Of a stretch of DNA of 64,000 nucleotides, positions 2,128 to 20,987 are shown in pieces. The stretch covers positions 1 to 64,000 of the forward strand of contig JANQPH010000044.1 in the NCBI GenBank assembly GCA_028285405.1, given 5' to 3'. The translations under genes were made by a program, and so were the position numbers. A model generated the notes under the pieces. That model ran no database searches and was not told the DNA's origin. It saw only the letters and a program-made list of their open reading frames with translations. Numbering within the stretch: position 1 is the first letter of the stretch; each line of letters begins with the position of its first letter. The stretch comes from Thermoleophilia bacterium. GTDB taxonomy: Bacteria > Actinomycetota > Thermoleophilia > Miltoncostaeales > Miltoncostaeaceae.

Positions 2128-2907
2128 GTGAGCCGCGACCTCTCGGACGTCCAGAGCTACTACGACCACCTCGCGCCCCGGCTCGTCGCCGTCGAGGGTC
2201 GCAACTGGCACCTGCAGAGCCGGATGGCGCTCGTGCTCGACGCCGTCAACCGGCTCGGCGGCGCGGCGCGCCCCTCCACCTCGGATTCGGGTCACAGAGG
2301 CCGCCTGCTGGATGTCGGCTGCGGCACCGGCTTCCTCCTGGAGCGTCTCGGCCTGGCCGGATGGTCCGGTGTCGGCATCGATCTGTCGCCGGAGTCCGTT
2401 GCGCTCGCGCAGGAGCGGCTCGCGCGCGTCGGGGTCGCCGACCGACTCGATGCCGCGGTCGGCAGCGCATACGAGCCCCCGACCGGACCGTTCGACCTGG
2501 TCACGGTCACCGACGTCCTCGAGCACCTCGAGGACCCGCGCGCCTGCCTGACCGCGATTCGCCGCCAGATCGCGCCGGGCGGGCTGCTCGTGATCTCGAC
2601 GCCGAACCGACGGAGCCTTCCGGGGGCGCGCCGGTGGCTGGCCGAGCACGGGGTTCCGGGGATCACGCTCCACCTCGCCCCGATCGACCGCTGGCAGACC
2701 TGGACGGACCTCGAGAGCCACGCGGCGGCGGCGGACTTCGTGCGGGTGAGCCGGAAGGGGATCTTCTTCCGGCCCGGCGGGCGGATCGGCTCGCAGATCG
2801 GGCGCGCCTATCGCTGGCCGGCCGTGCGACGTGCCGAGCTCGCCATCTCGGGTGAGCCGCTCGGACGGTTCGGCTTCTATATCTGCGTGGGGTTTCGCCC
2901 GACGTAG
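2128..2907 (+). CDS. Class I SAM-dependent methyltransferase
   Basis: The 259-residue product carries motif I LLDVGCGTGFLLERL, the acidic strand-2 end GVGIDLS, and a post-motif segment FDLVTVTDVLEHLEDP, as in UbiG/Coq3-like and sugar O-methyltransferases. The GTG at 2128 is preferred because the product then begins with the typical helix SRDLSDVQSYYDHLA; an ATG at 2089 would add 13 unremarkable residues overlapping the glycosidase gene. The position in the locus suggests methylation of a sugar or lipid-linked intermediate, but the acceptor is unknown. Confidence 0.85.
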   Translation: MSRDLSDVQSYYDHLAPRLVAVEGRNWHLQSRMALVLDAVNRLGGAARPSTSDSGHRGRLLDVGCGTGFLLERLGLAGWSGVGIDLSPESVALAQERLARVGVADRLDAAVGSAYEPPTGPFDLVTVTDVLEHLEDPRACLTAIRRQIAPGGLLVISTPNRRSLPGARRWLAEHGVPGITLHLAPIDRWQTWTDLESHAAAADFVRVSRKGIFFRPGGRIGSQIGRAYRWPAVRRAELAISGEPLGRFGFYICVGFRPT

Positions 2908-2926
2908 GCCTCGGAGCCCGGAGGCT

Positions 2927-3946
2927 GTGGTGGACGGCAAAACGCGACGCTCGATCACTGCGCTCGGCGTGCTCGCGCTCAGCGCGCTCGCGCTGGCCGT
3001 CTTCGTGCTGCCGTTCGCGTTTCCGACCCCGCCGCCGATCATCACCCGGTTCCAGGCGACCCAGGTCTTCAGCCCGAACGACGACGGCCGACGGGACGTC
3101 GCGCGCGTCTCGATCCGCGTCCGCGAGACCAGCGACATCACCCTCGACGTCCGCCGGGGCGGAAACACCGTCGCACGACTCGTGACCGACGAGGAGGTCC
3201 CTCCGGGCTGGCTCGTGGTCCCGTGGGACGGACGCGGCGACGACGGGCAGCCGCTCCCGGACGGCGCGTACTCCCTCAAGCTCCAAGCCCGGTCGGGCGA
3301 GAAGCGCTTCAACGCGTCGAGGCGAATCGAGATCGACACCGCTCCCCCGGGCTTCCTGCGGTTCGACGTCGTGTCGGCGGCGCTCGCGGGCCCGGGTCCA
3401 GGGCAGTGCCGCACCACGATCGTCGCCGACGAGGACGCCTCGGCGAGAATCGAGGCGCTCCCACCCGGTGGCGGGCAGCCCGTGGCCACCATCGGACCTC
3501 GGCCGGTCACCGCCGAGACGGCCTCGGCCTGGGCGTGGAACGGTCGAGCGGACGGTCGGCCCGTCGCACCGGGCCTCTACACGCTGTCCGCGCGCCTCCA
3601 GGATCCTCCGGGCAACAGATCGACCGCCCAGCGGACGTGCTGGGTCGGCAACATGATCGGCACGCCACGCGGGTCCGGCGACAGCCGTGGCGTACGGCTC
3701 GTCGAGACGGACGGGACCCCCGTGCCGGGCGGAACGCCGGTGACCCTGTCCGTGCACCGGCGTGTCGGCACGCCGGGCACCGAGCGCGGCCCCGTCGTCG
3801 GCGCGCGACTCTCCGGTCCGGTGACCGGCTCGGCGGGTTCGGTCGAGGTCTCGATTCCCGACGAGCCGCTGTCGGAGCTGTGGCTCGTGGCGAGCACACG
3901 TGACGCGCGCGCGCTCGTACCGCTGATCCCGGAGCGAGCGCCGTGA
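2927..3946 (+). CDS. Membrane-anchored FlgD-Ig-like protein
   Basis: The 339-residue product has one N-terminal hydrophobic helix (about residues 10-32) followed by an extracytoplasmic region. Residues of the type FSPNDDGRRDVARVSIRV, then VPWDGRGDDGQPLPDGAYSL, match the FlgD Ig-like/CHU_C-type fold; a second similar module (WAWNGRADGRPVAPGLYTL) follows. The C-terminal part has no recognised domain. Two adjacent GTG codons (2927 and 2930) follow a GGAG at 2920, and either could start. It is probably a surface structural or adaptor protein of the polysaccharide machinery; that is inferred from the neighbourhood. Confidence 0.75.
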   Translation: MVDGKTRRSITALGVLALSALALAVFVLPFAFPTPPPIITRFQATQVFSPNDDGRRDVARVSIRVRETSDITLDVRRGGNTVARLVTDEEVPPGWLVVPWDGRGDDGQPLPDGAYSLKLQARSGEKRFNASRRIEIDTAPPGFLRFDVVSAALAGPGPGQCRTTIVADEDASARIEALPPGGGQPVATIGPRPVTAETASAWAWNGRADGRPVAPGLYTLSARLQDPPGNRSTAQRTCWVGNMIGTPRGSGDSRGVRLVETDGTPVPGGTPVTLSVHRRVGTPGTERGPVVGARLSGPVTGSAGSVEVSIPDEPLSELWLVASTRDARALVPLIPERAP

Positions 3947-5505
3947 CCGACGTCGCGCGCGAGGTGGCCTCGGTCATCGCCGTTCTGGGCGTGCTCGCCC
4001 TGCTCGTGCCCATCCCTCGGATCCCTCCGACGCTTCGGCGCGCGCTGGGACTCGTCGCGGTCGTCGTCGCCTGGATCGCCCTCGTCTGGACCCTCCTGCC
4101 GTCAGACCTGGCAACCGATCGGCTCGCGAGCCCAGTCGGGATCGGCGCAGTCGTGGTCGGTGTCCTCGTCGTCGCGGCGATCGCCTACGGCGCGATGCGG
4201 CTCGTGCTCGCGTTCCCGTGGGTGTGGTTCCTGCTCCTGGGTCTCGCGCTGCCGTTCCGGATCCCGGTGTCGCTCGGAAGCGAGCAGGCCAACCTCCTCG
4301 TTCCCCTCTATGCCGTCATCGCCCTCGGCGTCCTGGCGTGGGCCTATGGGCGGCTCACGCGGCGGTTCGGGCCGGACGAGGATCCGACCACGCCGCTGGA
4401 TCTGCCGCTCGGCATCTTCGTCGGCTTCGTGGTGCTGTCGAGCACGTGGAGCGCCGACCCCGAGGAGGCGGCGGTCCAAACGGTCTTCTTCTACCTGCCG
4501 TTCACCCTGCTCTACCTCGCCGTGGTGGCGTGGTGGCCGAAGGCCCGGGCGCTCGCCATCCTGGCCGCGACCACGATCGGTCTGGCGGTGCCGATCGCCG
4601 TCCTGGCCCTCGGGCAGTACGCCACGCGGGACATCTTCTGGAACGCGACGCTCCAGCAGGCCAACATCTACAGCCAGTTCTACCGGGTGAACGCGGTCTT
4701 CTTCGACCCGAACATCCTCGGCAGATACCTCGTCATCGCGATGATCGGCGCCGTCGCGATCGCCTGGGTCAGCCAGAACACCCGGCTGATCGCCGGTCTG
4801 TGGCTCGCGACCGCGATCCTCGGCGTGGGTCTCGTGGTGACCTTCTCGCGCTCGAGCGCCCTCATGCTGCTCGTGGCCCTGTTCCTGCTGTCGTGGCGCG
4901 CGTTCGGGGCGAAGCGGACCGCCGTGGTGAGCGCCGTGGCTGTGGGTGTGGTGCTGGTGCTCGCGCTCGGCACCAGCCAGAGCGTGCGCGATGCCGCCAC
5001 GTCGACCGATCGGCTCGAGGAGGTCTCGGAGGGCCGGTTCGGGCTGGTCCGAGGCGGCCTCACGATCTGGAGGGACGAGCCGGTCGTGGGGGCGGGCCTC
5101 GGCGGCTTCGAGCCCCGCTTCGAGGAGACGCTCACCCCGACCGAGCAGCGACGGATCCGTGTCGTGGTCTCGCACAACACCCCGGTGACCGTGCTGAGCG
5201 AGCAGGGCGTGGTCGGCTTCGCCCTCTTCCTGGTCCTGCTCGCATCGGCGGCCGCGGCCATGACGCGCGCCAGCTGGCGGACCAGTGGCAATGACTCGTG
5301 GGCGATCTGGACCCTCCAGGCGATCGTGGCCGGCATATTCGTCCACGCGCTGCTCTACTCGGCGCTGTTCGAGGATCCAGCGACCTGGGTGCTGACCGCG
5401 AGCGCGCTCGCGATCGCCGCGAACGCGAGGGCAACGGTGCCCGAGGCGGCGCCGGCAGACGGCGAGCCGCCGCCCGAGCTCGCCCCGAGCGCGGGCTCGC
5501 CCTAG
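3943..5505 (+). CDS. O-antigen ligase/polymerase family protein (Wzy-like, copy 1)
   Basis: This 520-residue integral membrane protein has about a dozen hydrophobic helices. It carries the family signature FFDPNILGRYL in the middle and the large-loop motif SHNTPVTVLSEQGVVG near the C-terminus, typical of Wzy_C/O-antigen ligase proteins that polymerise or transfer undecaprenyl-linked repeat units outside the membrane. The GTG start overlaps the previous stop (GTGA). A second family member lies at 6655-8142, with only 25-30 percent resemblance by eye. The C-terminal 30 residues are Pro/Ala/Glu rich and probably disordered. Confidence 0.85.
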   Translation: MTDVAREVASVIAVLGVLALLVPIPRIPPTLRRALGLVAVVVAWIALVWTLLPSDLATDRLASPVGIGAVVVGVLVVAAIAYGAMRLVLAFPWVWFLLLGLALPFRIPVSLGSEQANLLVPLYAVIALGVLAWAYGRLTRRFGPDEDPTTPLDLPLGIFVGFVVLSSTWSADPEEAAVQTVFFYLPFTLLYLAVVAWWPKARALAILAATTIGLAVPIAVLALGQYATRDIFWNATLQQANIYSQFYRVNAVFFDPNILGRYLVIAMIGAVAIAWVSQNTRLIAGLWLATAILGVGLVVTFSRSSALMLLVALFLLSWRAFGAKRTAVVSAVAVGVVLVLALGTSQSVRDAATSTDRLEEVSEGRFGLVRGGLTIWRDEPVVGAGLGGFEPRFEETLTPTEQRRIRVVVSHNTPVTVLSEQGVVGFALFLVLLASAAAAMTRASWRTSGNDSWAIWTLQAIVAGIFVHALLYSALFEDPATWVLTASALAIAANARATVPEAAPADGEPPPELAPSAGSP

Positions 5506-6654: not shown

Positions 6655-8142
6655 ATGTCGACCCTTGGCCAGAGCACGCGAGGGCCGGTCGCCGCCGAGG
6701 GCCCGGACACCGGCGACGGGCCAGCGCGCGGCGGCGGCATCCCACCGAGGCTCGCCGCGACGATCGGGGTCGCGGCCCTGCTCGCCGGCGCGCTCGCGGT
6801 GTTCCAGCCCCTGCTCGGGCTGGGCCTCGCGGTTATCGTGCTCGTGGTCGTCGTGCTGCAGGCGACCCCGATCCCGGCGATCGGACGGGTGCTCCTCGGC
6901 TTGACCGCGGTGGCCGCGGTCGCCGGCCCGAGCCTCGCGGCCCCGGCCATCCCATGGCTGTTCGGCTTCCGCATCCTGATCGTGCTGCTCGGGATGGGGC
7001 TCGTGGCCTACCTGCTGATGGACGGTCCGCTCACGCTCCCCGCCGGGTTGCCGCGACCCGCCGCGCTCCTGGGTGTCTGGCTCGCATGGTCCGTGCTCTC
7101 GATCGGGTGGTCGGCGGACGTGATCGCCGCGGCCCGTTGGAGCCTCTTCCTGGCGATGATGTCCCTGCTCGCCATCGGCATCGCGGTCGTCTGCCGAGAG
7201 CCGCGACGCGCACGGCGGCTGCTGTGGGCGCTCGGGGGCGCCTTCGCCGCGGCGTGCCTGGTCGCGCTCGCCGAGCTCGCGACCGGCCGGCACCTTCCGA
7301 GCGCGCGGGGCGAGGCCGGCCAGGACATCATCTTCGGAGCCGCGTCGTTCTTCGGAAACGAGAACAACTTCGCGATCTTCCTGGCGCTCGCGATGCCGTG
7401 GTTCCTGGCGCTGCCGGTCGTCTACCGCGACGCGAGGCTGCGGATCCTGGGAACCGCCGGGGCCCTCGTGTCGGGGGGATTCCTGGTCCTGACCGGCAGC
7501 AAGACGGCGCTCCTGGCGTTCGGCATCGTGCTCTTGGTGCTGCTCGTCGTCGTCGGCGCCGACCGACAGCAGCGCGGTCGCATCGTCGCCGCCGGCGCCG
7601 TCGCCGCCGTCGCGATCCTGCTCGTGGTGCCGAGCGTCCTCGGCACGGGCCTGATCCCGCTCGATCAGCGAACGGTGACCAAGTTCGACTTCGGCCTTCT
7701 CGCCCAGCAGGTCGAGACGGGCCAGGGCTCCGGCGGGGTGCGGACCGCCCTCCTCGAGGAGGGGCTCGGGCTCGTCGGGCAGACCGGAGGGCTCGGGGTG
7801 GGCGCCGGACAGGCAGAGGTCGAGGTGCGGGCGCTCGACAGCTTCCCCGGCGTCGGCAACCTCCACAACTGGTGGCTCGAGGTGCTGGTCAACGGCGGGA
7901 TCGTCGCCTTCGGCCTCTACCTCGCGTTCTTCTTCGGGTTGGTACGAGGGACGTTCCGGGCGGCCAGGCGTGGCACGGATCCGCTGGTCCGGTACTTCGG
8001 GCTCGCCTCGCTCCTGGGACTCGCCGCCTGGGCGTTCGGATCGCTCGGACCGTCGACCGCGATCCACTACGCGCCGATGTGGATCACCTTCGGGCTCGCG
8101 ATGGGCGCCATGGTCCTGCTCGCCCGGGAGGCGCGCCGGTGA
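6655..8142 (+). CDS. O-antigen ligase/polymerase family protein (Wzy-like, copy 2)
   Basis: This 495-residue polytopic protein has a hydrophilic N-terminus (about 35 residues) and then about 11-12 membrane helices. The family motifs are FFGNENNFAIFL in the centre and NLHNWWLEVLVNGG in the late periplasmic loop. The ATG is chosen because upstream codons in this frame overlap the preceding gene and have no hydrophobic character. It shares family with the gene at 3943 but is clearly diverged. Having two such enzymes suggests one polymerase and one ligase, or two acceptors. Confidence 0.85.
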   Translation: MSTLGQSTRGPVAAEGPDTGDGPARGGGIPPRLAATIGVAALLAGALAVFQPLLGLGLAVIVLVVVVLQATPIPAIGRVLLGLTAVAAVAGPSLAAPAIPWLFGFRILIVLLGMGLVAYLLMDGPLTLPAGLPRPAALLGVWLAWSVLSIGWSADVIAAARWSLFLAMMSLLAIGIAVVCREPRRARRLLWALGGAFAAACLVALAELATGRHLPSARGEAGQDIIFGAASFFGNENNFAIFLALAMPWFLALPVVYRDARLRILGTAGALVSGGFLVLTGSKTALLAFGIVLLVLLVVVGADRQQRGRIVAAGAVAAVAILLVVPSVLGTGLIPLDQRTVTKFDFGLLAQQVETGQGSGGVRTALLEEGLGLVGQTGGLGVGAGQAEVEVRALDSFPGVGNLHNWWLEVLVNGGIVAFGLYLAFFFGLVRGTFRAARRGTDPLVRYFGLASLLGLAAWAFGSLGPSTAIHYAPMWITFGLAMGAMVLLAREARR

Positions 8143-9332: not shown

Positions 9333-10480
9333 GCGTCGCGGTCGTCCTGCAGGCGTCCGGGCCCAACGCCCTCGGGATCATCCGGAGCCTCGCCCGCGCT
9401 CGGATCCCGGTCGTCGCGACCGACCACGACCCGACCGCGCTCGGCCTGCGGTCGAGGTACGCCCAGCCGGAGGTCCTGCCAAATCCGATCGACGAGCCGA
9501 GTGCCTTCGTGGACGAGCTTGTCGCCCTGGGGCAGCGGCGGGGCGGACGACCCGTGCTGTTCGCCACCCACGACGACGCGCTCGCGGCGATCGGGCCGCG
9601 CGAGGACGAGGTCGACGCCCTGTTTCGCCGGCCGTGGAGCCCATGGGGCACACTCGAGCCGATCCTCGACAAGTCGCACCAGCACGCCGTCGCTCGCAGC
9701 ATCGGTTTCCCCGTGCCCGAGACCCACGAGCCGGCCGACGAGCGCGAGCTCGAGCAGGTCCTGGAGCGCATCAGGTACCCGGTCGTCCTGAAGCCCCGCG
9801 AGCAGGCCGCGTTTCGCGCGAGGTTCCGGTCGCAGGTGCTCGAGGCCGCCACCCCGGACGAGCTGCGCGAGCGCTTTGGGGACGCGCAGGCGTACCGACC
9901 GCAGGTGAGCGAGGTCATCCCCGGCGGCGACGAGACGCTCTGGACCCTCGGCAGCTATCGCGACGCAGACGGTGTCCCGCTCGGCTCCTTCACCGGCAGA
10001 AAGCTCCGGCAGTGGCCCCCGCGATTCGGCACGGCCCGGGCCGCCGAGGCCAGCTGGGATCCCGATCTGGCAGCCCGCTGCCATGCGCTCCTCGACGCGC
10101 TCGGCTACCACGGGATCTCTCAGGTCGAGGTGAAGCGCGATCCCCGTGACGGGCGAGACGTGCTCATCGAGGTGAACCCGCGGTCGTGGCTGTGGATCAG
10201 CCTCGCCACCTCGGTCGGCGTGAACCTGCCGGCGCTGTGCTTCGCCGACGCGACGGGCGCGGCCGTCCGGCCCGCGCTGGGACACCGCTCGGGACGGCGC
10301 TGGACGCTCGCGGCGAAGCACCTGGTCGCGAGCCCCCGCGAGATCCGGCGCGGACAGTGGACCGCCGGAGCGTTCGCTCGCAGCCTGCGACCGCCGATCA
10401 TCGACGGGGTCCTCGACCCGCGCGACCCGAGACCGGGCCTCGCGATGATCGAGCGCCGGACCGGGCGCCGGCGTGGCTGA
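9329..10480 (+). CDS. ATP-grasp ligase
   Basis: The 383-residue product opens with a Rossmann-like preATP-grasp domain (VAVVLQASGPNALGIIRSLA) and continues with ATP-grasp features: a lysine strand VVLKPREQAAFRARF and the metal/ATP-binding end VLIEVNPRSWLWISLA. This resembles carboxylate-amine ligases and the CarB-like enzymes found in polysaccharide loci. The expected chemistry is ATP-dependent ligation of a carboxylate to an amine, for example adding an amino acid to an amino sugar or uronic acid. It is joined by GTGA to the upstream glycosyltransferase and overlaps the downstream fusion gene by eight bases. The substrate is unknown. Confidence 0.8.
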   Translation: MSVAVVLQASGPNALGIIRSLARARIPVVATDHDPTALGLRSRYAQPEVLPNPIDEPSAFVDELVALGQRRGGRPVLFATHDDALAAIGPREDEVDALFRRPWSPWGTLEPILDKSHQHAVARSIGFPVPETHEPADERELEQVLERIRYPVVLKPREQAAFRARFRSQVLEAATPDELRERFGDAQAYRPQVSEVIPGGDETLWTLGSYRDADGVPLGSFTGRKLRQWPPRFGTARAAEASWDPDLAARCHALLDALGYHGISQVEVKRDPRDGRDVLIEVNPRSWLWISLATSVGVNLPALCFADATGAAVRPALGHRSGRRWTLAAKHLVASPREIRRGQWTAGAFARSLRPPIIDGVLDPRDPRPGLAMIERRTGRRRG

Positions 10481-12827
10481 GCTGCGCGTCGCGATCGACG
10501 GCGGGCGCGAGGCGTTCCTCCCCCGAGCCCGGTGGGTGCTCGAGGAGCTGGTGTCGGCCCTCGGCCACGAGGCGCGGTTCGTCTCCGGCGAGGCAGACCT
10601 CACCTATTCGCCGGTCCGCCCCGATTCGGGCGTGTGGATCCCGCTCGACCCCGGCGCCCAGGACTTCCTCCTCTCCGGCCCGGCCTTCCCGCCCGCCGGA
10701 CATGCCGAGCGCGTCGCGGACCTGACGCTGCTCTTTCCCGCCGTCGACGAGTCGGCGCCGATCCCCGGAGACATCGTCGCCAGCGCCTTCTACCTGCTGG
10801 CCCGCATCGACGAGCTTCGGGTCGCGGAGCGGGACCGGTTCGGGCGGCTGCCCTTCACGGCGAGCGCATTCGCGAACATCGCGGGCCTCGAGATCGAGGA
10901 CCCGCCGGTCGAGGGGTATCTTGCCCGGCTGCGCGCGGAGCTCGGCCTCGAGGCACCCGAGCGGTGGTCGGTGTTCCTCACGCACGACATCGATCGCATC
11001 CGGCGCCGGACGATCAAGGGGATCGCGGGGGTCGCCCGGCGACGGGGGCTGTCCGGTGTCGCCGCCCTCGCCCGCCGAGACCCGTGGGACAACCTCGTCG
11101 AGCTGCTCTGGACGAGCGGACGGCGCGGGCTCACTCCGACGGTCTTCCTGATCGGTCGCAACGCCCACCCGCTCGACGGCACGCCCCGCCGGACCTACGA
11201 GCGCGAGCGGGGCCGGCTTGCGGCTGCGGTGAGAGCGGCGGGCGGAGAGGTGGGCCTGCATGCGGCATTCGCGTCGGCCGAGGCGGAGGACGCGCTCGCC
11301 GAGGAGGCCGACCGCCTGCGCGCGGAGGCCGGCGAGGTCGTCGGCTCGCGCTTCCACTACCTGCGGTTCGGGTACCACACCACCGTGCCCTGGCTGGAGC
11401 GCGCCGGTCTGCGGTACGACGCGAGCCTCGGCTTCAGCGAGCGACCCGGGTACGCGGCGGGGATCGCCCGGCCGTTTCGCCCCTACGTCATCTCCGAGGA
11501 GCGCCCTGCCGAGGTCACCCTCGTCCCCCTCGCGGTGATGGACACGAGCCTGCACTCGCACCTCGGACTCGATGCCGCCGAGGCTCGCGATCGGGCCCTA
11601 CGGGTGCTGGACGTCTGCCGGCGCTTCGGGGGCGCGGCCGCCCTTCTCTGGCACAACACGTACCTAGCCGACGAGCGCGCGCCGGGGTACCGCTCGACCT
11701 GGGAGGAGCTCCTGGACGCGCTCGGCGACCGTGGGGCCACGATGGGGCCGATCGCGCCGCCGCCGACCCCCACGGGCGCAACGCTCGACGGCGAGCGGGT
11801 CGTGCACCTCACGAGCGTGCACCGACCGCGCGACGTCCGGATCTTCCACAAGGAGGCGCGTGCCCTCGCCGGCGCTGGAGCATCGGCCGTGGTCGGAGCG
11901 CCCGCGACGCCGATCCCGCGAAAGCGCCGACTCGCCGCCGGCTGGCGGCTCGCCCGAGCGGCCGCGGACCTCGACGCCGATGCCTTCCACGTGCACGACC
12001 CCGAGCTGATCCCGCCCGCGCTCTGGCTGGCCCGCCGGACCGGGGCGCCGGTCATCTACGACGCGCACGAGTACCTCGGCGAGACCGTTCGCACCAAGCG
12101 ATGGATCCCGCGGCTGGCTCGCCTTCCGATCGCCGTGCTCGCCGAGCGGGTGGAGGCCGCCGGCGGTCGTGCGCTCGCCGGGGTCGTCGCCGTCAACCCG
12201 GATCTGGCCGCTCGCTTCGCGCGTCGCGGAGCGCGGGTCGCGAGCGTCGCCAACAGCCCCTGGGCCGACGCGTACCCGACGCCGGAAGCCCCGACCGGGT
12301 CGGGGATCGTCTACGTCGGAGGCATCGGGCCGCTCCGGGGCATCGGCCTGATGCTCGACGCATTCCCGCGTGTCGAGTCCCCCGACGCGACCCTGCTGCT
12401 GGTCGGCCCGGGCGAGCCCGGGCACCTGCCGCCACGCGTCGAGGCCGTCGGCCCGATCGACCACGCCGCCGTCCCGAGCGTGCTCGCAGACGCGCGGATC
12501 GCGTGGATCCCATTGCAGCGCCACGGCAACTACGATCGCGCGGTGCCCACGAAGCTGGTCGAAGCGATGGCCGCCGGTCGACCGGTGGTCGCGAGCAACC
12601 TCGGTCGGATGAGCGCCGTCGTGCGCGAGTCAGGGTGCGGACTGCTCGTGCCCCCCGACGACCCGGTCGCCCACGCCGACGCGTTGACGGAGCTGCTGAC
12701 AGACGACGCCCAGGCCCGGGAGCGCGGCGCGGCGGGCCGGCGCGCGTTCGAGACCGGCCTCTCCTTCGAGCGCGAGGCCGATGCGCTCACGTCCTTCTAC
12801 TCGGACGTGCTCGGAGTCGGCTCGTGA
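10473..12827 (+). CDS. Polysaccharide deacetylase-like (DUF7033-type) / GT4 fusion
   Basis: The 784-residue product has two parts. Residues 1 to about 425 resemble the DUF7033-plus-polysaccharide-deacetylase arrangement: FLTHDIDRIRR places the metal/catalytic acids at D172 and D174, with later GLHAAFAS and LLWHNTYL segments. A Pro-rich linker (about 426-442) leads to a GT-B glycosyltransferase from residue 443 (VVHLTSVHRPRDVRIFHKEA) ending with PTKLVEAMAAGRPVVAS. Deacetylation of an N-acetylated sugar and glycosyl transfer are therefore linked in one chain. The GTG start overlaps the ATP-grasp gene by eight bases. The deacetylase half has no signal peptide, so it would act on a cytoplasmic-face intermediate. 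Confidence 0.8.
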   Translation: MAELRVAIDGGREAFLPRARWVLEELVSALGHEARFVSGEADLTYSPVRPDSGVWIPLDPGAQDFLLSGPAFPPAGHAERVADLTLLFPAVDESAPIPGDIVASAFYLLARIDELRVAERDRFGRLPFTASAFANIAGLEIEDPPVEGYLARLRAELGLEAPERWSVFLTHDIDRIRRRTIKGIAGVARRRGLSGVAALARRDPWDNLVELLWTSGRRGLTPTVFLIGRNAHPLDGTPRRTYERERGRLAAAVRAAGGEVGLHAAFASAEAEDALAEEADRLRAEAGEVVGSRFHYLRFGYHTTVPWLERAGLRYDASLGFSERPGYAAGIARPFRPYVISEERPAEVTLVPLAVMDTSLHSHLGLDAAEARDRALRVLDVCRRFGGAAALLWHNTYLADERAPGYRSTWEELLDALGDRGATMGPIAPPPTPTGATLDGERVVHLTSVHRPRDVRIFHKEARALAGAGASAVVGAPATPIPRKRRLAAGWRLARAAADLDADAFHVHDPELIPPALWLARRTGAPVIYDAHEYLGETVRTKRWIPRLARLPIAVLAERVEAAGGRALAGVVAVNPDLAARFARRGARVASVANSPWADAYPTPEAPTGSGIVYVGGIGPLRGIGLMLDAFPRVESPDATLLLVGPGEPGHLPPRVEAVGPIDHAAVPSVLADARIAWIPLQRHGNYDRAVPTKLVEAMAAGRPVVASNLGRMSAVVRESGCGLLVPPDDPVAHADALTELLTDDAQARERGAAGRRAFETGLSFEREADALTSFYSDVLGVGS

Positions 12828-14038
12828 GCCGGATCCTCTACGTGTCGCAGTACTTCGTGAGCGCGGACCAGCCCGGCGGCGTCCGCCACTGGCAGCACAC
12901 CCGCGCGCTCGCAAACGCCGGGCACGACGTCAGCGTGGTCACCTCCTACGTGCAGCACAAGGAACGGGAGGTCCCCGAGGAGTACCGCGGCAAGCGCGTG
13001 GTGCGCGAGGAGGCCGACGGCCTCACGATCTATCGCACCTACGCGACCCCCGGCTACGGGCGCGACCTGCGCTCACGGCTCGCGAACTACACGACGTTCG
13101 CATCGTGGTCGATGGTGGCCATGATGCGGGCGGCGCGACCCGACGTCGTGGTCGCCTCCTCGCCGCCGCTCCCCGCGGCCGCCGCGGCGGCGGCCGTCGC
13201 GAAAGGGCGCCGGGTGCCCTTCGTGCTCGAGGTCCGCGACCTGTGGCCCGATTCGGCCGTCGCGATGGGCCTGCTCAACGAGGGCCCGGCCGTCCAGGCC
13301 GCGGCGCGCCTCGAGGCGTCGCTGTACGCCCAGGCGACGCGCATCGTCGCCCTGACCGAGGGCATCCGCGACGGGATCCTCGAGAAGGGGGTCAGCCCCG
13401 GCAAGGTGCGCCTGGTCACCAACGGCGTCGACCTCGACATCGCCGAGGGCGAGGCCGACGCGACGGTGGACCTTCCGCAGGAGCCGTTCGTCGCCATGTA
13501 CGTCGGCGCCCACGGCACCTACTCCTCGCTCGGAACGGTGCTCGACGCGGCCGAGCACCTCCTCGACGATCGGAACATCCTCTTCGTGCTGGTCGGCGGG
13601 GGGGACCAGAAGGCGGCGCTCGTCGAGGAGGCCGCCGCGCGCGAGCTCCACAACGTCCGCTTCGTGGATCCGATCCCGAAGCGCGAGGTCCCGGCGTGGC
13701 TGGCCCGCGCCGACGCGTGCATCCTGCCGTACCAGGACCGCGAGCTCTTCGCGGGGGCCCTTCCCAACAAGACCTTCGACTACCTCGCATCGGGATCGCC
13801 CATCGTGGTCGCCGCTCCGACGGGCGAGCTGACGCGCCTGATCGAGGAGGGGCACTGCGGGGTCGTGGTGCCGCCCGAGGACGGCGCGGCCATGGCCGCC
13901 GCGATCGCCGCGCTCGCGGGCGATCGAGACCACGCCGCGCAGCTCGGGACGAACGGGGAGCGCCTGGTCCGGAGCCGCTACGACCGCCGAGCGCTGGCGG
14001 CGCAGTTCGTCGAGACGGTCGAGTCCGTTGCCCGCTGA
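12824..14038 (+). CDS. Glycosyltransferase, WbuB/GT4 type
   Basis: The 404-residue product starts MSRILYVSQYFVSADQPGG and shows VLEVRDLWPDSAVAMG in the acceptor half, characteristic of the WbuB-like GT4 group (fucosamine transferases among them). The donor half contains the segments LVGGGDQKAALVEEA and LPNKTFDYLASGSPIVVA. The start GTG overlaps the preceding stop (GTGA). The WbuB name is a family resemblance and does not fix the sugar. Confidence 0.85.
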   Translation: MSRILYVSQYFVSADQPGGVRHWQHTRALANAGHDVSVVTSYVQHKEREVPEEYRGKRVVREEADGLTIYRTYATPGYGRDLRSRLANYTTFASWSMVAMMRAARPDVVVASSPPLPAAAAAAAVAKGRRVPFVLEVRDLWPDSAVAMGLLNEGPAVQAAARLEASLYAQATRIVALTEGIRDGILEKGVSPGKVRLVTNGVDLDIAEGEADATVDLPQEPFVAMYVGAHGTYSSLGTVLDAAEHLLDDRNILFVLVGGGDQKAALVEEAAARELHNVRFVDPIPKREVPAWLARADACILPYQDRELFAGALPNKTFDYLASGSPIVVAAPTGELTRLIEEGHCGVVVPPEDGAAMAAAIAALAGDRDHAAQLGTNGERLVRSRYDRRALAAQFVETVESVAR

Positions 14039-14684
14039 CGGGGTCGGGTCGAGCCGGCTCGGCCGTGGCCCGGTCGGGGGCCGGGTCAAGCGCGCGATCG
14101 ACCTCGGGGTCGCCGTTCCGCTCGCGATCGTCACCGCCCCCGTCATGGCGGGGATCGCCGCCTGGATCAGCAGCGACTCGCCCGGCTCTCCGATCTTCCG
14201 CCAGCAGCGGATCGGGTACGGCGGAACGCCGTTCACGCTTCTGAAGTTCCGGACGCTCCACACCGGCAGCGAGCACGCGGGCACCGGGCATCGGGTGGGC
14301 GCGACGGACAGGCGGGTCACCAAGGCCGGACGGATTCTGCGCGCGACCTCGCTCGACGAGCTCCCACAGCTCTGGAACGTGATCCGCGGAGACATGAGCG
14401 TGGTCGGCCCCCGGCCCACGGTCGGCTGGCAGGTCGAGCAGTACACGCCCCACCAGCGCCGCCGCCTTCTGGCGCGCCCTGGGATCACCGGCCTCGCGCA
14501 GGTTCGAGGGCGCAACTCGATCCCCTGGTCACAGCGGATCGAGATCGACATCGAGTACGTCGAGCGCTGGAGCCTTCGCCTCGATCTCGAGGTGCTCGCG
14601 CAGACGGTGCGGGTCATCCTGGGGCGCCGCGACACCCACACCGAGGCGCCGGCCTTCGATCTCGGGCGCCGCCCGAGCGCCTGA
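14028..14684 (+). CDS. Initiating sugar-1-phosphate transferase (WcaJ/PglC-type)
   Basis: The 218-residue product has one N-terminal hydrophobic hairpin (about residues 20-45) and the conserved polyprenyl-phosphate sugar-phosphotransferase catalytic core: LLKFRTL, SLDELPQLWNVIRGDMS, VGPRP and RPGITGLAQVRG. These enzymes load the first sugar phosphate onto undecaprenyl phosphate at the membrane and start repeat-unit assembly. The start is a TTG overlapping the upstream gene by 11 bases; no ATG or GTG exists before the membrane segment. It lacks the long N-terminal domain of WbaP/CpsE proteins. Confidence 0.9.
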   Translation: MPADGVGSSRLGRGPVGGRVKRAIDLGVAVPLAIVTAPVMAGIAAWISSDSPGSPIFRQQRIGYGGTPFTLLKFRTLHTGSEHAGTGHRVGATDRRVTKAGRILRATSLDELPQLWNVIRGDMSVVGPRPTVGWQVEQYTPHQRRRLLARPGITGLAQVRGRNSIPWSQRIEIDIEYVERWSLRLDLEVLAQTVRVILGRRDTHTEAPAFDLGRRPSA

Positions 14685-14736: not shown

Positions 14737-15576
14737 GTGGAGCGCGAGATCACACTACGCGACTACGGTCGAGTGCTCTGGCGCGGCCGATGGATCATCA
14801 TCGCGACGACCGTCGTCGCCGCCCTCGTCGGCCTGGTCCTGAGTTTCGTCGGTGGCACCGAGTACACCGCCACCGCGCGGGCGTACCTCGGCCAGGCCAC
14901 CTCGATCACGGGGATCCCGATCGCGACCCCCCAGACCAACAACGTCACCGCGTCCGACGTGCTCGAGCGGGACGAGATCTCGTCCGAGGTCGCCGAGGCG
15001 GTCGGCGTCAAGGAGTCGCGGGTGCGCTCGGGGGTCGAGGTCAGCGTGCCCGAGGCTCGTGGCGCCGCCGCGATGGCTCCCACGGTCGCAACGGTGACCT
15101 TCACGGACTCGGACCGGGACGTCGCCCAACAGGGAGCCGAGGTCTATGCCACTGCACTGGTCGCCGATGCCTCGACGAACTACGACCAGGTCGTCGGCGT
15201 CTACCAGCAGCGCCTCGAGCGCGGCCAGGCCGAGCTCGATCGCCTCGACCGGCAGATCGCGACCTTCGAGCGACAGCTCGCGGCGAACGCGGGCACCGAG
15301 CAGGAGGCGCTGTACCAGTCGCTGCTCTTCAGCGCCCTCGATCGCCGCGCGGATCTGGTCGACGAGGTCGGCGAGCAGGAGCTCAACATCGCCAAGGCGG
15401 AGCAGATCGAGCAGCCGGTCCTGATCACCGAGACCGCCAGCGTCAGCTCGAACGCGGCGACGGGGTCGCGAGTGCGGACCGTCGGGCTGGCCGCGGCGAT
15501 CGGGCTGCTGATCGGGATCGTGATCGCATTCGTCTGGCGGGGCAGCCCGTCGGCGCGTGAAGCGCAAGACGCGTAG
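14737..15576 (+). CDS. Wzz-type polysaccharide co-polymerase
   Basis: The 279-residue protein has a short cytoplasmic start (MEREITLRDYGRVLWR), a first transmembrane helix at about residues 18-38, an extracytoplasmic region with a Glu/Gln-rich coiled coil (about 148-215) and a second transmembrane helix at about 247-268. This is the Wzz/chain-length-determinant topology. It lacks a C-terminal BY-kinase domain, and no separate kinase is seen in the window. It probably sets chain length with one of the two Wzy-like proteins. The start follows a TAATAT box by nine bases. Confidence 0.85.
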   Translation: MEREITLRDYGRVLWRGRWIIIATTVVAALVGLVLSFVGGTEYTATARAYLGQATSITGIPIATPQTNNVTASDVLERDEISSEVAEAVGVKESRVRSGVEVSVPEARGAAAMAPTVATVTFTDSDRDVAQQGAEVYATALVADASTNYDQVVGVYQQRLERGQAELDRLDRQIATFERQLAANAGTEQEALYQSLLFSALDRRADLVDEVGEQELNIAKAEQIEQPVLITETASVSSNAATGSRVRTVGLAAAIGLLIGIVIAFVWRGSPSAREAQDA

Positions 15577-16939
15577 GGCGCTCGCGGGTTCTCTCGTCCT
15601 CGTCGGAGCCGCCGCCGCGGGATGCTCGAGCACGGGCGGTGGGGAACTCGCCCCCGGGCCGCAGGTGAACCTCGTCCCCCGCGTGCTGGTCACCGTCAAC
15701 GACGGCGACACCGGTGCGCCCGTGCGAGGAGCAACGGTCCGTGGCGCGCACCGCTCGGTCAACGCGCGGACGGACCGCGACGGCGAGGTTCGGCTCGTGG
15801 GCCCGGTCAGCACCGTCGTCGGGTCGGCGCCGGGGTACGCGCGCTCCACGACCGAGGTCAGGCGCGGCTCTGCGGGCATCGAGCTGCACGCCCCGCGGCT
15901 CCAGAGCCGCCAGTACGGCGGCGGACCGGCGCGCCGGCGCCACGTGCCGGCGGTACGCGTCGGCCCGCCGGGGGCGCGCCCGGCGTGGACGTTCGACGCC
16001 CGGACGCTGGTCGAGTTCCCGCCGGTCGTCGAGAACGGCCTTCTCGCGTTCGGAACGAACGGCGGGCGGGTGTTCGCGCTCGACGCCAAGACCGGAACGC
16101 GCCGCTGGGATGACCGACTGGGTGGCGCGATCGCGTCGAGTCCGTCCATCATCGACGGCATCGTCTACGTCACGGCAATGGACGGCACGATCTCCGCCTA
16201 TCGCGGCGACGACGGCGCGCGCCTCTGGCGCCTTCGCACCGGCAGCCCGATCGAGAGCTCGCCGCTGGTCGTCGGCGGGCTGGTCTACTTCGGCAACTGG
16301 GCGGGTGTCGTCTACGCGGTTCAGGCCGCAACCGGCCGGGTGCGCTGGACGTACCGGGCGCCGGGCCAGATCAAGGGCAGCGCGGCGCTCGCGGACCGCA
16401 AGGTGGTGATCGGCGACTACTCGGGACGGGTGCACGCCCTCGATCCCCGAACTGGCGACAAGCGCTGGACGTTTGCCGGCGGCACACGCTTCTACGGAGG
16501 TCCGGCCGCCGCCGGAGGACGCATCGTGATCGGCGACGTCGGGGGTGCCGTCTACGGGTTGAGCGCACGCACCGGCCGCCAGCTCTGGCGTCACTCCACG
16601 GGCGGCGCGTACGTGTACGCCTCGCCGGCGCTGGCCCGCGGCGCGGCCTACATCGGCTCCTACAACGGCAACTTCCAGGCGCTCGATCTGCGCACCGGGC
16701 GCGTGCGGTGGACCTTCGACATGGGCGGCAGGATCTCGGGCTCGGCGACCGTCGTGGACGGCGTCGCCTACGCCGCTCGCCTGTATCGACAAGGCGAGCC
16801 GCGGCGCACGGTCGGCGTTCGCATCCGCGACGGCCGGCTGGTGCACGACAGCCGTGACGGGCGCTACTCGCCCGCGGTCGCGGCAGGAAACCGCCTGTAC
16901 CTCGTCGGAACCCGAAAGGTCTATGCCTACACAGCGTGA
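15557..16939 (+). CDS. PQQ-like beta-propeller lipoprotein
   Basis: The 460-residue product has a basic N-terminus and a lipobox ending GAAAAGC (Cys about residue 23), so it is probably a lipoprotein. Residues of about 40-110 resemble a carboxypeptidase-regulatory/Ig-like module (VTVNDGDTGAPVRGATVRG). From about residue 135 onward there are six or so PQQ/BamB-like blades with GxVYAL-type strands and Trp-docking repeats such as FALDAKTGTRRWD, YAVQAATGRVRWT and QALDLRTGRVRWT. It overlaps the Wzz gene by 20 bases. A PQQ cofactor is not implied; such blades usually form scaffolds. The next gene is a paralogue. Confidence 0.8.
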   Translation: MKRKTRRALAGSLVLVGAAAAGCSSTGGGELAPGPQVNLVPRVLVTVNDGDTGAPVRGATVRGAHRSVNARTDRDGEVRLVGPVSTVVGSAPGYARSTTEVRRGSAGIELHAPRLQSRQYGGGPARRRHVPAVRVGPPGARPAWTFDARTLVEFPPVVENGLLAFGTNGGRVFALDAKTGTRRWDDRLGGAIASSPSIIDGIVYVTAMDGTISAYRGDDGARLWRLRTGSPIESSPLVVGGLVYFGNWAGVVYAVQAATGRVRWTYRAPGQIKGSAALADRKVVIGDYSGRVHALDPRTGDKRWTFAGGTRFYGGPAAAGGRIVIGDVGGAVYGLSARTGRQLWRHSTGGAYVYASPALARGAAYIGSYNGNFQALDLRTGRVRWTFDMGGRISGSATVVDGVAYAARLYRQGEPRRTVGVRIRDGRLVHDSRDGRYSPAVAAGNRLYLVGTRKVYAYTA

Positions 16940-18368
16940 CAAGCGGCACCCGCTCCGCGGGGCCCTGAAGGCGCTTGCGGCGATCTGGCTCGGCGCCGCC
17001 CTGGCGGCAGATCGCGACCTCACGCGCGAGCGGCGCCGGCGCCAGGCGCTGGCCGACTCGATCGCGCCCTCGAGCGCGGCGGCCGCCGCCTCACCCGTCG
17101 CGGACGACGATCGCGCGGGTGCGGGGCGCCCGCCCCTTCTGCGTCGCGGCTGGGTCCAGTTGTGGGCCGCGATGGCGCTGCTGGGGCTCGTCGTCGTGAT
17201 CTTCGCCGGAGTCGCCGTCGCACGTGGATGGTTCGACGACGGCGACATCACCGGCACCAGCGAGGGCTTCGTCGCGGCTGCCGCACCCGCGGGCACGGCA
17301 GCCGCCGCCAGCTGGCCGGAGTACGGCTTCGACCACCAGCGCACGCGCGCCAACCCGGCGCTACGCATGCGACCGCCGTTCGAGGAGACATGGTCGTTCG
17401 ATGCGGGCTCGCTGCTCGAGTTCCCGCCGGTCATCGCCGAGGGTCGAGCGATCGTCGGCACCAACGCCGGGCTCGGGCTCGCTGTCGACACCCAGACGGG
17501 ACGCGAGCTGTGGCGGGTCCGGCTGCGCGGTCGGGTCGCCTCCTCGCCGGCCATCGCCGGCGACCTCGCCCTGTTCACCACGATCAACGGCCGGTTCGTC
17601 GCGGTCGAGGCCGCGACCGGGCGGGTCGTGTGGCGCGTCAACCTCGGGGGTGGCAGCGAGTCCTCACCGCTGGTGATCGACGGTGACGCCTACATCGGCA
17701 CGTTGGACGGGCGGGTGATGCGCTACGACCTGGAGCGCAAGCGCCCGGTGTGGGTCGCCCGCGCGACCGGAGAGGTGAAGGCCAGCCTCGCGCAGGCGGG
17801 GCCGAACGTGATCGTCGGTGACTACGGCGGGAACGTCAGCGCGTTCTCGCGCCGCGACGGCTCGCTGGCATGGCGGACCAAGAGCCCGGCGCCCGCGCTG
17901 CGCGGGCCCGGACGCTTCTACGCCGGGCCGGCCGTCGCCTACGGGCGCGTCTACGTCGGCAACATCAACGGCCGGGTGCTCGGCCTGTCGGCGCGAACCG
18001 GAGACGTCTCGTGGGTGCGCAGCGCCGACGACTGGGTCTACTCGAGCGCGGCGGTGGCGAACCAGACCATCTTCATCGGAAGCTACGACGAGCGGCTCTA
18101 CGCGCTCGATGCGGTCACGGGCCTTCCCAAGTGGACGTTCCCGGCCGGGGAGCGCATCTCCGGCTCGCCGTCGGTGATCGGAGACCTGGTGTACGTCTCG
18201 ACCATCGCACGCAACCCCAAGGACGGGCGGACGTTCGCGCTCGACGTGGACACCGGCCGGCGCGTCTGGCAGTTCCCGGACGGCCGCTACAGCCCGGCTG
18301 TCGCGGTCGACGGACTCATGGTCCTCACCGGGGTGCGCACGATGTACGGGTTCGTCCCTGCGGCCTGA
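16923..18368 (+). CDS. PQQ-like beta-propeller protein with membrane anchor
   Basis: The 481-residue product starts with a cytoplasmic Arg/Ala-rich segment, then a single transmembrane helix (about residues 80-100, LWAAMALLGLVVVIFAGVAVA), then an extracytoplasmic propeller with blades such as LAVDTQTGRELWRV, VAVEAATGRVVWRV and FALDVDTGRRVWQF. The ATG at 16923 overlaps the upstream paralogue by 17 bases; longer forms would only read into that gene. The shared EFPPV entry into the propeller and the parallel blade order indicate tandem duplication followed by a change in membrane attachment. Confidence 0.8.
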   Translation: MPTQRDKRHPLRGALKALAAIWLGAALAADRDLTRERRRRQALADSIAPSSAAAAASPVADDDRAGAGRPPLLRRGWVQLWAAMALLGLVVVIFAGVAVARGWFDDGDITGTSEGFVAAAAPAGTAAAASWPEYGFDHQRTRANPALRMRPPFEETWSFDAGSLLEFPPVIAEGRAIVGTNAGLGLAVDTQTGRELWRVRLRGRVASSPAIAGDLALFTTINGRFVAVEAATGRVVWRVNLGGGSESSPLVIDGDAYIGTLDGRVMRYDLERKRPVWVARATGEVKASLAQAGPNVIVGDYGGNVSAFSRRDGSLAWRTKSPAPALRGPGRFYAGPAVAYGRVYVGNINGRVLGLSARTGDVSWVRSADDWVYSSAAVANQTIFIGSYDERLYALDAVTGLPKWTFPAGERISGSPSVIGDLVYVSTIARNPKDGRTFALDVDTGRRVWQFPDGRYSPAVAVDGLMVLTGVRTMYGFVPAA

Positions 18369-18431: not shown

Positions 18432-19979
18432 GTGACCGTCCGTCGCCTCGCACGGGCCGCGGCAATCGTGGCCATCTTCGGGCTCGTCTCGCGGCTGCTC
18501 GGCTTCGCGCGCGAGATCGTGCTCGCGGCGAGCTTCGGTGCCAGCGCGGCGACGGACGCGTTCGTGAGCTCGATGCTCATCGTCAACTCCGTGGCCGCCG
18601 TCCTGCTCTACACGATGGTCACGCTCGTCATCCCGATTTTCCAGCAGGAGCGGGAGCGCCACGGCCAGCGGAGCGCCTGGCAGCTCGTCTACGCCCTCTC
18701 CGCCTGGGTCGGCGTCGTGCTCATCGGCCTCACGGCGCTCGTGGCAATCTTCCCCGAGGCGCCGGCGTGGCTGTTCCAGCTGGACACCGAACGAGCGGAC
18801 CTGACCGAGCGCCTGATCCGGATCATGGCCCCGGCGCTGATGCTGCAGGGGCTGTCCGCGCTCTTCACCGCGCTCCTGCAGATCCACGGCCGCTTCGCCG
18901 GGCCCGCGGCCGTCGGGGTCGTCTTCAACCTCGGGATCATCACCGGCACGCTGATCGGCGCCGCCGGTGGCGGGATCGAGGCCGCCGCCTGGGGTGTATC
19001 GGCCGGCGCCGTCGCGCAGATCCTCCTGCAGACGCCGCAGTTCGTGGGCCTCGTCCGGGAGTCCCGAACCCGGCCGGTCGTGGTGCACCCCCGGCTGGCT
19101 CAGGTGAGCATGCTCGCGCTCCCCGTCCTCGGGGCGTCCGTGCTCCAGCAGGTCAACAACTTCACGGACAAGCTGTTCGCGTCCTCGCTCGAGGCGGGGC
19201 GCGTGACGGCGCTCCAGTTCGCCAACACGCTCGGTCAGGCGCCGCGCGCCGCCCTGCTCCTGCCGCTCCTGACCCCACTGTTTCCGACCATCGCCCGGCT
19301 GGTCGCCGAGGGGCGCGAAGGAGACGCGCTCGGCGCGTTTCGGCGGGCCGCCGGGCTGCTCGGGTTCCTCGCCGTTCCGATCACCGTCGTGATGGCGATC
19401 TACGCACAGGAGATCGCGCAGCTCGCGTTCGGCCGGGGCGAATGCGACGCGCAGTGCGTCGACGAGACGGCCTCACCGCTCTTCTTCTACGCCTTTGCGG
19501 TCTGGTCCGGCTTCGCGTCGATGCTCATGAACCGGACGCTCTCGGCCGCCCACCGCCAGCGCGCGATCATGATCGCGACCGCGATCACGGTCGCGCTGAC
19601 CATCGTCCTCGACATCATCCTGCTGGGCCCGCTCGAGCAGGCCGGCCTCGCCCTCGCCAGCGCGATCGCCGTCTGGGTCAACGCATTCATGCTGCTCGGG
19701 ATCATGCAGCGACGGTTTCCCGAGCTCGAGCTGACCGCCCTCGGCGCCCAGGCCGTGCGGCTGGTGTTCGCGGGCGCCGTCGCCGCGGGCGTGGCCCTCG
19801 CGATCGACGTCGGATTGCCGACCGACGACATGACCTCTCCGTGGCTCTGGCTGCTGATGGCGATCAAGGCCGGCGTCGTCGTGGTCGCCTACCTCGTGGC
19901 CGCCCGGTTCCTCGCGCCCGCCGAGCTGCGCGAGGGGCACACGTCGGTCCGCGCCGTGATCTCCCGGCGGCGCGGGTAG
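18432..19979 (+). CDS. MurJ/MviN-family lipid-linked oligosaccharide flippase
   Basis: The 515-residue polytopic protein (about 13-14 helices) begins [30 protein letters not shown], the hallmark MurJ/MviN N-terminus, and has the mid-protein [15 protein letters not shown] and [13 protein letters not shown] segments. The family flips lipid-linked precursors across the membrane. In this locus it most likely acts as the Wzx for the exopolysaccharide repeat unit, although a role for lipid II cannot be excluded. The GTG start follows a 63-base gap. Confidence 0.88.
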
Positions 19980-20039: not shown

Positions 20040-20987
20040 GTGCCACAGACCTCGGTCGTCACCGGCGGCGCCGGCTTCCTCGGCTCACATCTCTGCGATC
20101 GGCTTCTCGCCGATGGGCACCGCGTGATCTGCGTCGACAACCTCGACACGGGGACGCTCGAGAACATCGAGCACATCCGGAACGGCCAGTTCGAGTTCGT
20201 CCAGCACGACGTCACCGAATACGTCGACGTCGCCGGCCCGGTGGACTACGTGTTCCACCTCGCCTCGCCGGCGAGCCCGATCGACTATCTGCGCCTGCCG
20301 CTCCACACGCTCAAGGTGGGCTCCTACGGCACCCACAACGCGCTGGGCCTGGCGAAGCGTCATCGCGCCAAGTTCCTGCTCGCGTCCACGAGCGAGGTCT
20401 ACGGCGATCCCCAGGAGCACCCCCAGAGCGAGACCTACTGGGGTCACGTGAACCCGATCGGCCCGCGTGGCGTCTACGACGAGGCCAAGCGATACGCGGA
20501 AGCGCTGACGATGGCGTACAACCGCCAGCAGGGCGTCGACACGCACATCGTTCGGATCTTCAACACCTACGGGCCACGGATGCGCCCGCACGACGGCCGG
20601 GCGATCCCCACGTTCCTCCGCCAGGCGCTCGAGGGCGAGCCGCTCACGGTGTTCGGCGAGGGGGATCAGACCCGCTCCTTTTGCTACGTCTCGGACCTGA
20701 TCGAGGGCCTCGTCCGGCTGATCAACGCCGAGGCGCACGAGCCCGTCAACATCGGCAACCCCGGCGAGTACACCATCCTCCAGCTCGCCGAGACGGTCAT
20801 CGCGGTCACCGGCAGCACGTCCGAGATCGTGTACGAGGCCCTTCCCCAGGACGATCCCACCGTCCGCCGCCCCGACATCGGCAGGGCACGCGAGCTGCTC
20901 GGCTGGGAGCCGACGGTCGGGCTCGAGGACGGCCTCACGATGACCCTCGCAACCCTTCGTCCGCAGGCTGCCACTCCCGCATCCTGA
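20040..20987 (+). CDS. UDP-glucuronate decarboxylase (UDP-xylose synthase)
   Basis: The 315-residue short-chain epimerase-type enzyme has the NAD-binding motif GGAGFLGSH (from residue 9), the UXS-type [11 protein letters not shown] and [10 protein letters not shown] segments, and the catalytic YDEAK (Tyr146, Lys150). It fits UDP-glucuronate decarboxylases, which make UDP-xylose, better than dTDP-glucose dehydratases, whose active site differs. It would supply a pentose donor for the glycosyltransferases upstream. The GTG start follows a TACGCT box. Confidence 0.88.

Follow-up and report, generated by a model that had tools for sequence, protein, structure and literature searches.

A Wzz-linked pair of membrane-anchored β-propellers in a Thermoleophilia polymer cluster, candidate scaffolds of polymer assembly

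Results

Two propeller proteins with different predicted anchors

The genome of a Thermoleophilia bacterium from the family Miltoncostaeaceae (GenBank assembly GCA_028285405.1) includes a 64,000-nucleotide stretch (contig JANQPH010000044.1, positions 1 to 64,000 of the forward strand; hereafter the window) in which two propeller genes, which we term P1 and P2, lie between genes for a Wzz-type chain-length protein and a flippase (Table 1). As an initial annotation made from the letters of the window had described, the two reading frames overlap by 17 bases and their products share both the motif EFPPV and a set of PQQ/BamB-type blades. Each protein matches the Pfam PQQ_2/BamB family (E 2.4e-41 for P1 and 1.4e-43 for P2), exceeding the PQQ_2 (PF13360) gathering cut-off of 27.6 bits with scores of 142.4 and 149.7 bits, respectively. 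AlphaFold2 models (mean pLDDT 95.4 for P1 and 94.3 for P2) contain eight blades each, as counted from the strand lists, and the two proteins are 41% identical across 347 residues of P2.

The predicted anchors of the two propellers differ. The sole cysteine of P1, C23, ends a lipoprotein-type signal; G22 and C23 are invariant across 11 aligned P1-type proteins, in keeping with the lipobox assigned to P1 at the outset, and position -3 from the cysteine is alanine in the window, where several relatives have the usual leucine. An Ig-like module also ascribed to P1 was not borne out: the β-sandwich that precedes the propeller is best matched by CarboxypepD_reg (PF13620; E 8.1e-6), at a score of 26.5 bits that lies under the gathering cut-off of 32.3, and the sandwiches of two P1 relatives score 29.2 and 19.0 bits with the same profile. 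P2 has no cysteine and the single membrane helix expected from the initial annotation; the cytoplasmic head described along with that helix, however, is not shared by relatives, which have ~5-35 residues before the helix, as opposed to ~70-75 in the window, if the first start codon is used. This charged and alanine-rich head is missing from aligned relatives, and its G+C content by codon position (0.84/0.66/0.86) is less typical than that of the propeller (0.68/0.55/0.93); it appears to be an extension or insertion of the window's lineage. In genome G007, P2 likewise begins before P1 ends, there with a short N-terminus.

The propeller gene adjoins Wzz in two families, in opposite orders

We surveyed 119 Thermoleophilia genomes, grouped into families by code (f1 being taken as Miltoncostaeaceae, order Miltoncostaeales). 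P2 has a match (E 1e-20) in 72 of these genomes, and the window Wzz, as a single-sequence query (1e-5), in 57; the PF02706 profile finds Wzz in 101 and detects the Wzz of f5 and f7 genomes, which the single-sequence query misses. Within Miltoncostaeaceae, all 22 genomes that have both matches encode Wzz and then a propeller on one strand, at most 374 bases apart; a further member of the family, G078, has the propeller and no Wzz match. The two genes lie within 960 bases of one another in 8 of 18 f3 genomes, with the propeller first in all eight; five of these pairs are within 341 bases and three are spaced at 938-960 bases, two of the three with an intervening gene (loci L066 and L070). Conservation of the propeller genes with Wzz in relatives, on which the initial annotation had made its interpretation depend, is therefore found in both families, with the order reversed in f3.

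Other polymer genes accompany this association. Among the compared loci, which vary in length from 4 to 18 kb, at least two polymer genes stand beside the propeller in 22 of 23 Miltoncostaeaceae, 9 of 13 f3 and 2 of 2 f9 loci. Across 19 loci of the Miltoncostaeaceae type (L102-L120), drawn partly from the same genomes as the sample, a Wzx match starts no more than 45 bases after P2 in 18, and Wzz lies upstream in 17; at the remaining locus, L108, no Wzx was found after P2, where the contig stops. Two metagenome-assembled genome records titled Bifidobacterium breve (L108, CAMCOB010000028.1; L110, CAMAVU010000008.1) bear this Miltoncostaeales-type locus and appear to be mislabelled.

P1-type proteins are less widespread. 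They occur in 8 of 23 Miltoncostaeaceae genomes and in G067, where the frame is broken and the contig short, and the lipoprotein-plus-sandwich layout is present in f3 proteins as well. In a 45-row tree, the P1 and P2 proteins of Miltoncostaeaceae group together (96/91.5), and a single clade of Miltoncostaeaceae and f3 P2 proteins is rejected by the approximately unbiased (AU) test (p 0.008); the same test does not reject a grouping of P1 from both families (p 0.094) or of P1 with P2 of f3 (p 0.20). A 72-row tree does not separate the branching order of Miltoncostaeaceae P1, Miltoncostaeaceae P2 and the f5/f7 group. The pair may stem from one ancient duplication, or else from gene conversion or from duplications that took place separately.

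A ring of residues is shared across seven blades

Inspection of the alignments revealed that the loops joining the last strand of one blade to the first strand of the next (D-A loops) are the best-conserved part of these proteins. Their conservation exceeds that of the remainder in a permutation test (p 0.0007 for P2-type and 0.00005 for P1-type proteins), with a general S-P motif of the repeat accounting for part of the effect. At a matching position of seven blades, P1 has the residues E153-A193-E233-K273-Y313-Y354-S394 and P2 the residues E166-A206-E246-K286-Y333-Y373-S413, a set that, from the topology of the fold, would encircle one mouth of the central channel.

Because the ring was picked from alignments whose rows are among those counted, its frequencies within the class are descriptive rather than an independent test. 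All seven residues occur in 8 of 8 Miltoncostaeaceae P1 rows; for P2, each of the positions before the serine is matched in 24 of 25 rows and the serine in 12, the 25 including fragments from G067, an assembly in which P1 is split into two frames. Mean matches out of seven are 6.8 in f7 (12 rows), 6.3 in f2 (3), 6.0 in f5 (7), 6.0 in P1-type proteins of f3 (5 rows, each with T in place of K), 5.75 in the other f3 rows (12), and 5.0 in both f8 (1 row) and f9 (2 rows). None of the seven residues is present in one f4 protein, itself a member of the class, or in Escherichia coli BamB; 19 propellers from other classes have a mean of 0.74 and a maximum of 2, counts in which matches might be hidden if the alignment is offset by whole blades. 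An ordered chain of motifs that does not depend on register, composed after the class proteins were known, is present in 53 of 75 class proteins, in none of the 19 outside propellers and not in the one BamB. Family-profile matches are weak in f4 and f6, which leaves seven of nine family codes with a clear presence of the propeller family.

A second neighborhood in two further families

In f5 and f7, the propeller resides in a different setting. At least three of the his, yggS, sepF, proC and rpsB genes flank it in 6 of 7 f5 and 10 of 12 f7 loci (16 of 19 together); for the his region, gene names were assigned by visual reading of two loci, and Pfam matches confirm a HisH-like glutamine amidotransferase and SepF. 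The propeller is on the opposite strand within this neighborhood in loci L079 and L093. Wzz (PF02706) is present in 15 of 20 propeller-bearing genomes of these families (4 of 6 in f5 and 11 of 14 in f7), and in the 14 such genomes listed it is either 92 kb or more away from the propeller or on another contig, the latter placement not proving distance in fragmented assemblies.

The surrounding genes form a polymer cluster

Judged by its predicted gene content, the locus is a Wzx/Wzy/Wzz-type polymer cluster: an initiating transferase, a flippase, a Wzy_C protein and Wzz are all present (Table 1), and the upstream part of the cluster also holds several glycosyltransferases. The flippase, which we take as the Wzx of the locus, scores 231.4 bits, just under the MurJ cut-off of 235.55.

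Table 1. Features of the window discussed in the text.
Feature	Coordinates	Strand	Description
ORF at contig edge	1-975		incomplete
FlgD_ig membrane protein	2831-3946	+	single membrane helix; domain and helix prediction
Wzy_C membrane protein 1	3943-5505	+	polymerase/ligase-type; domain match
Wzy_C membrane protein 2	6715-8142	+	polymerase/ligase-type; domain match; start codon chosen, putative
Fusion ORF	10473-12827		DUF7033/deacetylase-like region fused to group 1 glycosyltransferase
Initiating sugar-phosphate transferase	14028-14684	+	Bac_transf, exopolysaccharide (EPS) type; profile matches
Wzz-type chain-length protein	14737-15576	+	PF02706, E 1.4e-11; two membrane helices; 20-base overlap with P1
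P1	15557-16939	+	460 aa; predicted lipoprotein (C23); CarboxypepD_reg-like β-sandwich, ~aa 42-110; eight-bladed PQQ_2-type propeller, ~aa 144-459
P2	16923-18368	+	481 aa; predicted cytoplasmic N-terminus, ~70 aa; membrane helix, ~aa 71-100; eight-bladed PQQ_2-type propeller, ~aa 153-479
P2 head	16923-17150	+	charged, alanine-rich
Putative Wzx	18432-19979	+	MurJ-family flippase; 63-base gap after P2
Nucleotide-sugar epimerase/dehydratase family enzyme	20040-20987	+	NAD-dependent; profile matches

Several other genes deserve mention. The FlgD_ig type of membrane protein recurs near propellers in f9 and f3 (loci L085, L089, L097 and L098), making it a candidate further component of the propeller system. 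The fusion ORF is 60-66% identical to its counterparts in Miltoncostaeaceae loci where it is matched. GT-C type genes lie near the propeller in relatives (L049, 7481-8956; L074, 5888-7360; L066, 4809-6107 and 14551-15732); three of the four candidates match PMT_2, one of them below cut-off, and one matches GT87. Searches of Pfam, NCBIfam and PDB sequences gave no match for the ORF at the contig edge, initially proposed as a possible third propeller-like protein.

Examination of the organism's own genome (97.56% complete) gave no match to Omp85 (PF01103) in a search that was positive in 7 of 14 control genomes; a Wza-type exporter was not found in it either, and two LCP proteins are present. 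This combination fits a monoderm, as the initial annotation had supposed.

Structural relatives serve many roles

The best structure matches to the two models are eight-bladed propellers, both designed and natural: the designed protein Cake8 (Z 43.4), tetrathionate hydrolase (41.8) and YxaL (41.3; range 41-42), followed by Rv3035 (39-40) and the best rows for BamB (36-38). YxaL of Bacillus velezensis (7eq5, 7dxn, 7evf) is, by its PDB titles, a plant growth-promoting factor. Rv3035 superposes on P1 with Z 39.7 and a root-mean-square deviation of 2.8 over 340 residues, and on P2 with Z 39.3 and 2.6 over 340, at 18-19% identity in the structure alignments.

Rv3035 and its Mycobacterium marinum orthologue MMAR_1667 (PDB 9p3g, 9p3f) offer the closest parallel, being extracytoplasmic eight-bladed propellers of Actinomycetota, as P1 and P2 are predicted to be, with a reported partner enzyme in polymer assembly (PMC12802301). 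MMAR_1667, a predicted lipoprotein, is reported there to co-purify with FecB and the arabinosyltransferase AftB, its disruption to impair or slow growth, and Rv3035 to have no conventional lipobox (PMC12802301). P1 resembles MMAR_1667 in its predicted lipid anchor, whereas P2 has a helix instead; the mycobacterial propeller has FecB and AftB as partners and forms no pair, while the window pair sits in a Wzz/Wzx/Wzy_C gene context. The GT-C genes found near propellers in relatives recall the AftB partner of MMAR_1667.

Discussion

Our preferred reading, which we hold with moderate confidence, is that P1 and P2 are membrane-anchored, non-enzymatic scaffolds, or adaptors, at a site where a Wzx/Wzy/Wzz-type system assembles its polymer. 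It builds on features predicted from sequence or from models (the lipobox, the membrane helix, the fold, the close packing of the genes and the conserved placement between Wzz and Wzx) and draws support from the gene packing, from a conserved proximity to Wzz that spans two gene orders and, by analogy, from the mycobacterial precedent. Both propellers would face outward beside the Wzz and Wzy_C proteins and, through the conserved face that their D-A loops form (E, E, K, Y, Y), would bind a partner protein or a lipid-linked glycan; flipped repeat units, polymerase and co-polymerase would thereby be held together, with the lipoprotein P1 as an optional second subunit.

A number of observations weigh against this proposal. 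The 22 Miltoncostaeaceae cases are related by ancestry, and 14 of the 23 genomes of that family have only a P2-type protein, indicating that the pair is not essential. None of three f2 genomes with both genes has them adjacent, and two of the tested polymer genes are found in 0 of 2 f2 loci, 0 of 1 f8 loci (where a Wzy_C gene nonetheless adjoins the propeller) and 0 of 19 f5/f7 loci. The related f5/f7 propellers lie beside his/sepF rather than Wzz, which shows that this kind of protein is not tied to Wzz; moreover, their ring is kept equally well away from polymer genes, so whatever it binds could lie outside polymer assembly. The window itself has no GT-C gene between Wzx and the epimerase (a 61-base gap). 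Structural scores do not separate functions, propellers of many roles scoring alike. Finally, an attempt to co-purify tagged AftB directly with tagged FecB is reported to have been unsuccessful (PMC12802301). Of the extracellular polymer scaffold beside Wzz that the initial annotation had proposed, the conserved placement thus stands, the f5/f7 relatives do not follow it, the scaffolding role itself is a proposal, and the attachment role that it also suggested is speculative.

A broader model, which we advance tentatively, would have most Thermoleophilia families possess their own membrane-anchored propellers whose seven-blade ring binds one shared ligand of the envelope, a lipid-linked glycan for example; such a general adaptor would have become coupled to Wzz and doubled in some families, and come to lie beside his/sepF in others.

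Among the rivals to the scaffold proposal, the idea that the propellers are lectin-like, binding glycan and either retaining completed polymer at the cell surface or conveying it across the wall, strikes us as rather doubtful. The conservation of the D-A loops and the extra β-sandwich domain of P1 would suit it, as would the carbohydrate-binding-module-like role that the authors of the mBio study propose for FecB and MMAR_1667 (PMC12802301); however, the contribution of the S-P repeat motif to that conservation and the equal preservation of the ring in f5/f7 propellers distant from polymer genes argue against it. It is unlikely, in our estimation, that P1 and P2 are general envelope proteins of Thermoleophilia (of wall synthesis or division, for example) whose gene came into the polymer cluster in Miltoncostaeaceae and f3. 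This view draws its main support from the ring common to his/sepF-linked and polymer-linked proteins, together with the flanking genes of the f5/f7 loci, and has to contend with the proximity to Wzz seen in two families with opposite gene orders, the polymer genes nearby in f9 and the overlap of P1 with Wzz in the window.

An enzymatic role, whether as a quinoprotein dehydrogenase or as a polymer-trimming propeller lyase, is improbable. PQQ-dependent alcohol dehydrogenases, which are larger and depend on PQQ and metal, have a related propeller fold and repeat motif, and tetrathionate hydrolase is alike in fold; yet P1 (84.9 bits) and P2 (78.6 bits) fall far below the TIGR03075 cut-off for PQQ-dependent dehydrogenases (480.05), P1 has only its anchor cysteine and P2 none, and we reject a PQQ enzyme on these scores and the cysteine content.

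Least probable of all is a BamB-like part in an outer-membrane barrel assembly machine: P1 and P2 share the eight-bladed PQQ_2 propeller of E. coli BamB, P1 also has its kind of lipid anchor, and both resemble TIGR03300 (BamB), but with scores of 141.1 (P1) and 149.0 bits (P2) against a cut-off of 285.2, no Omp85 partner or Wza found in the 97.56% complete genome, one of the two proteins helix-anchored and none of the ring residues in BamB, we reject this role as very unlikely. Residues that we take to be the BamA contacts of E. coli BamB (L192, L194, R195, D246 and D248) are not visibly shared by P1 and P2 in a sequence alignment, in which repeats can align out of register.

Neither the fold nor the notion of a propeller acting as a scaffold is new; the differently anchored pair next to Wzz and the ring common to these propellers were not encountered in the openly licensed literature searched. 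To our knowledge, the extracytoplasmic organization of Wzy-type polymer assembly in monoderms is poorly understood. These results caution against inferring an outer-membrane function from 'BamB family' annotations in Actinomycetota, and the order-wide Wzz-propeller-(propeller)-Wzx block, together with the mycobacterial precedent, makes a general role of anchored propellers in the synthesis of actinobacterial envelope polymers directly testable.

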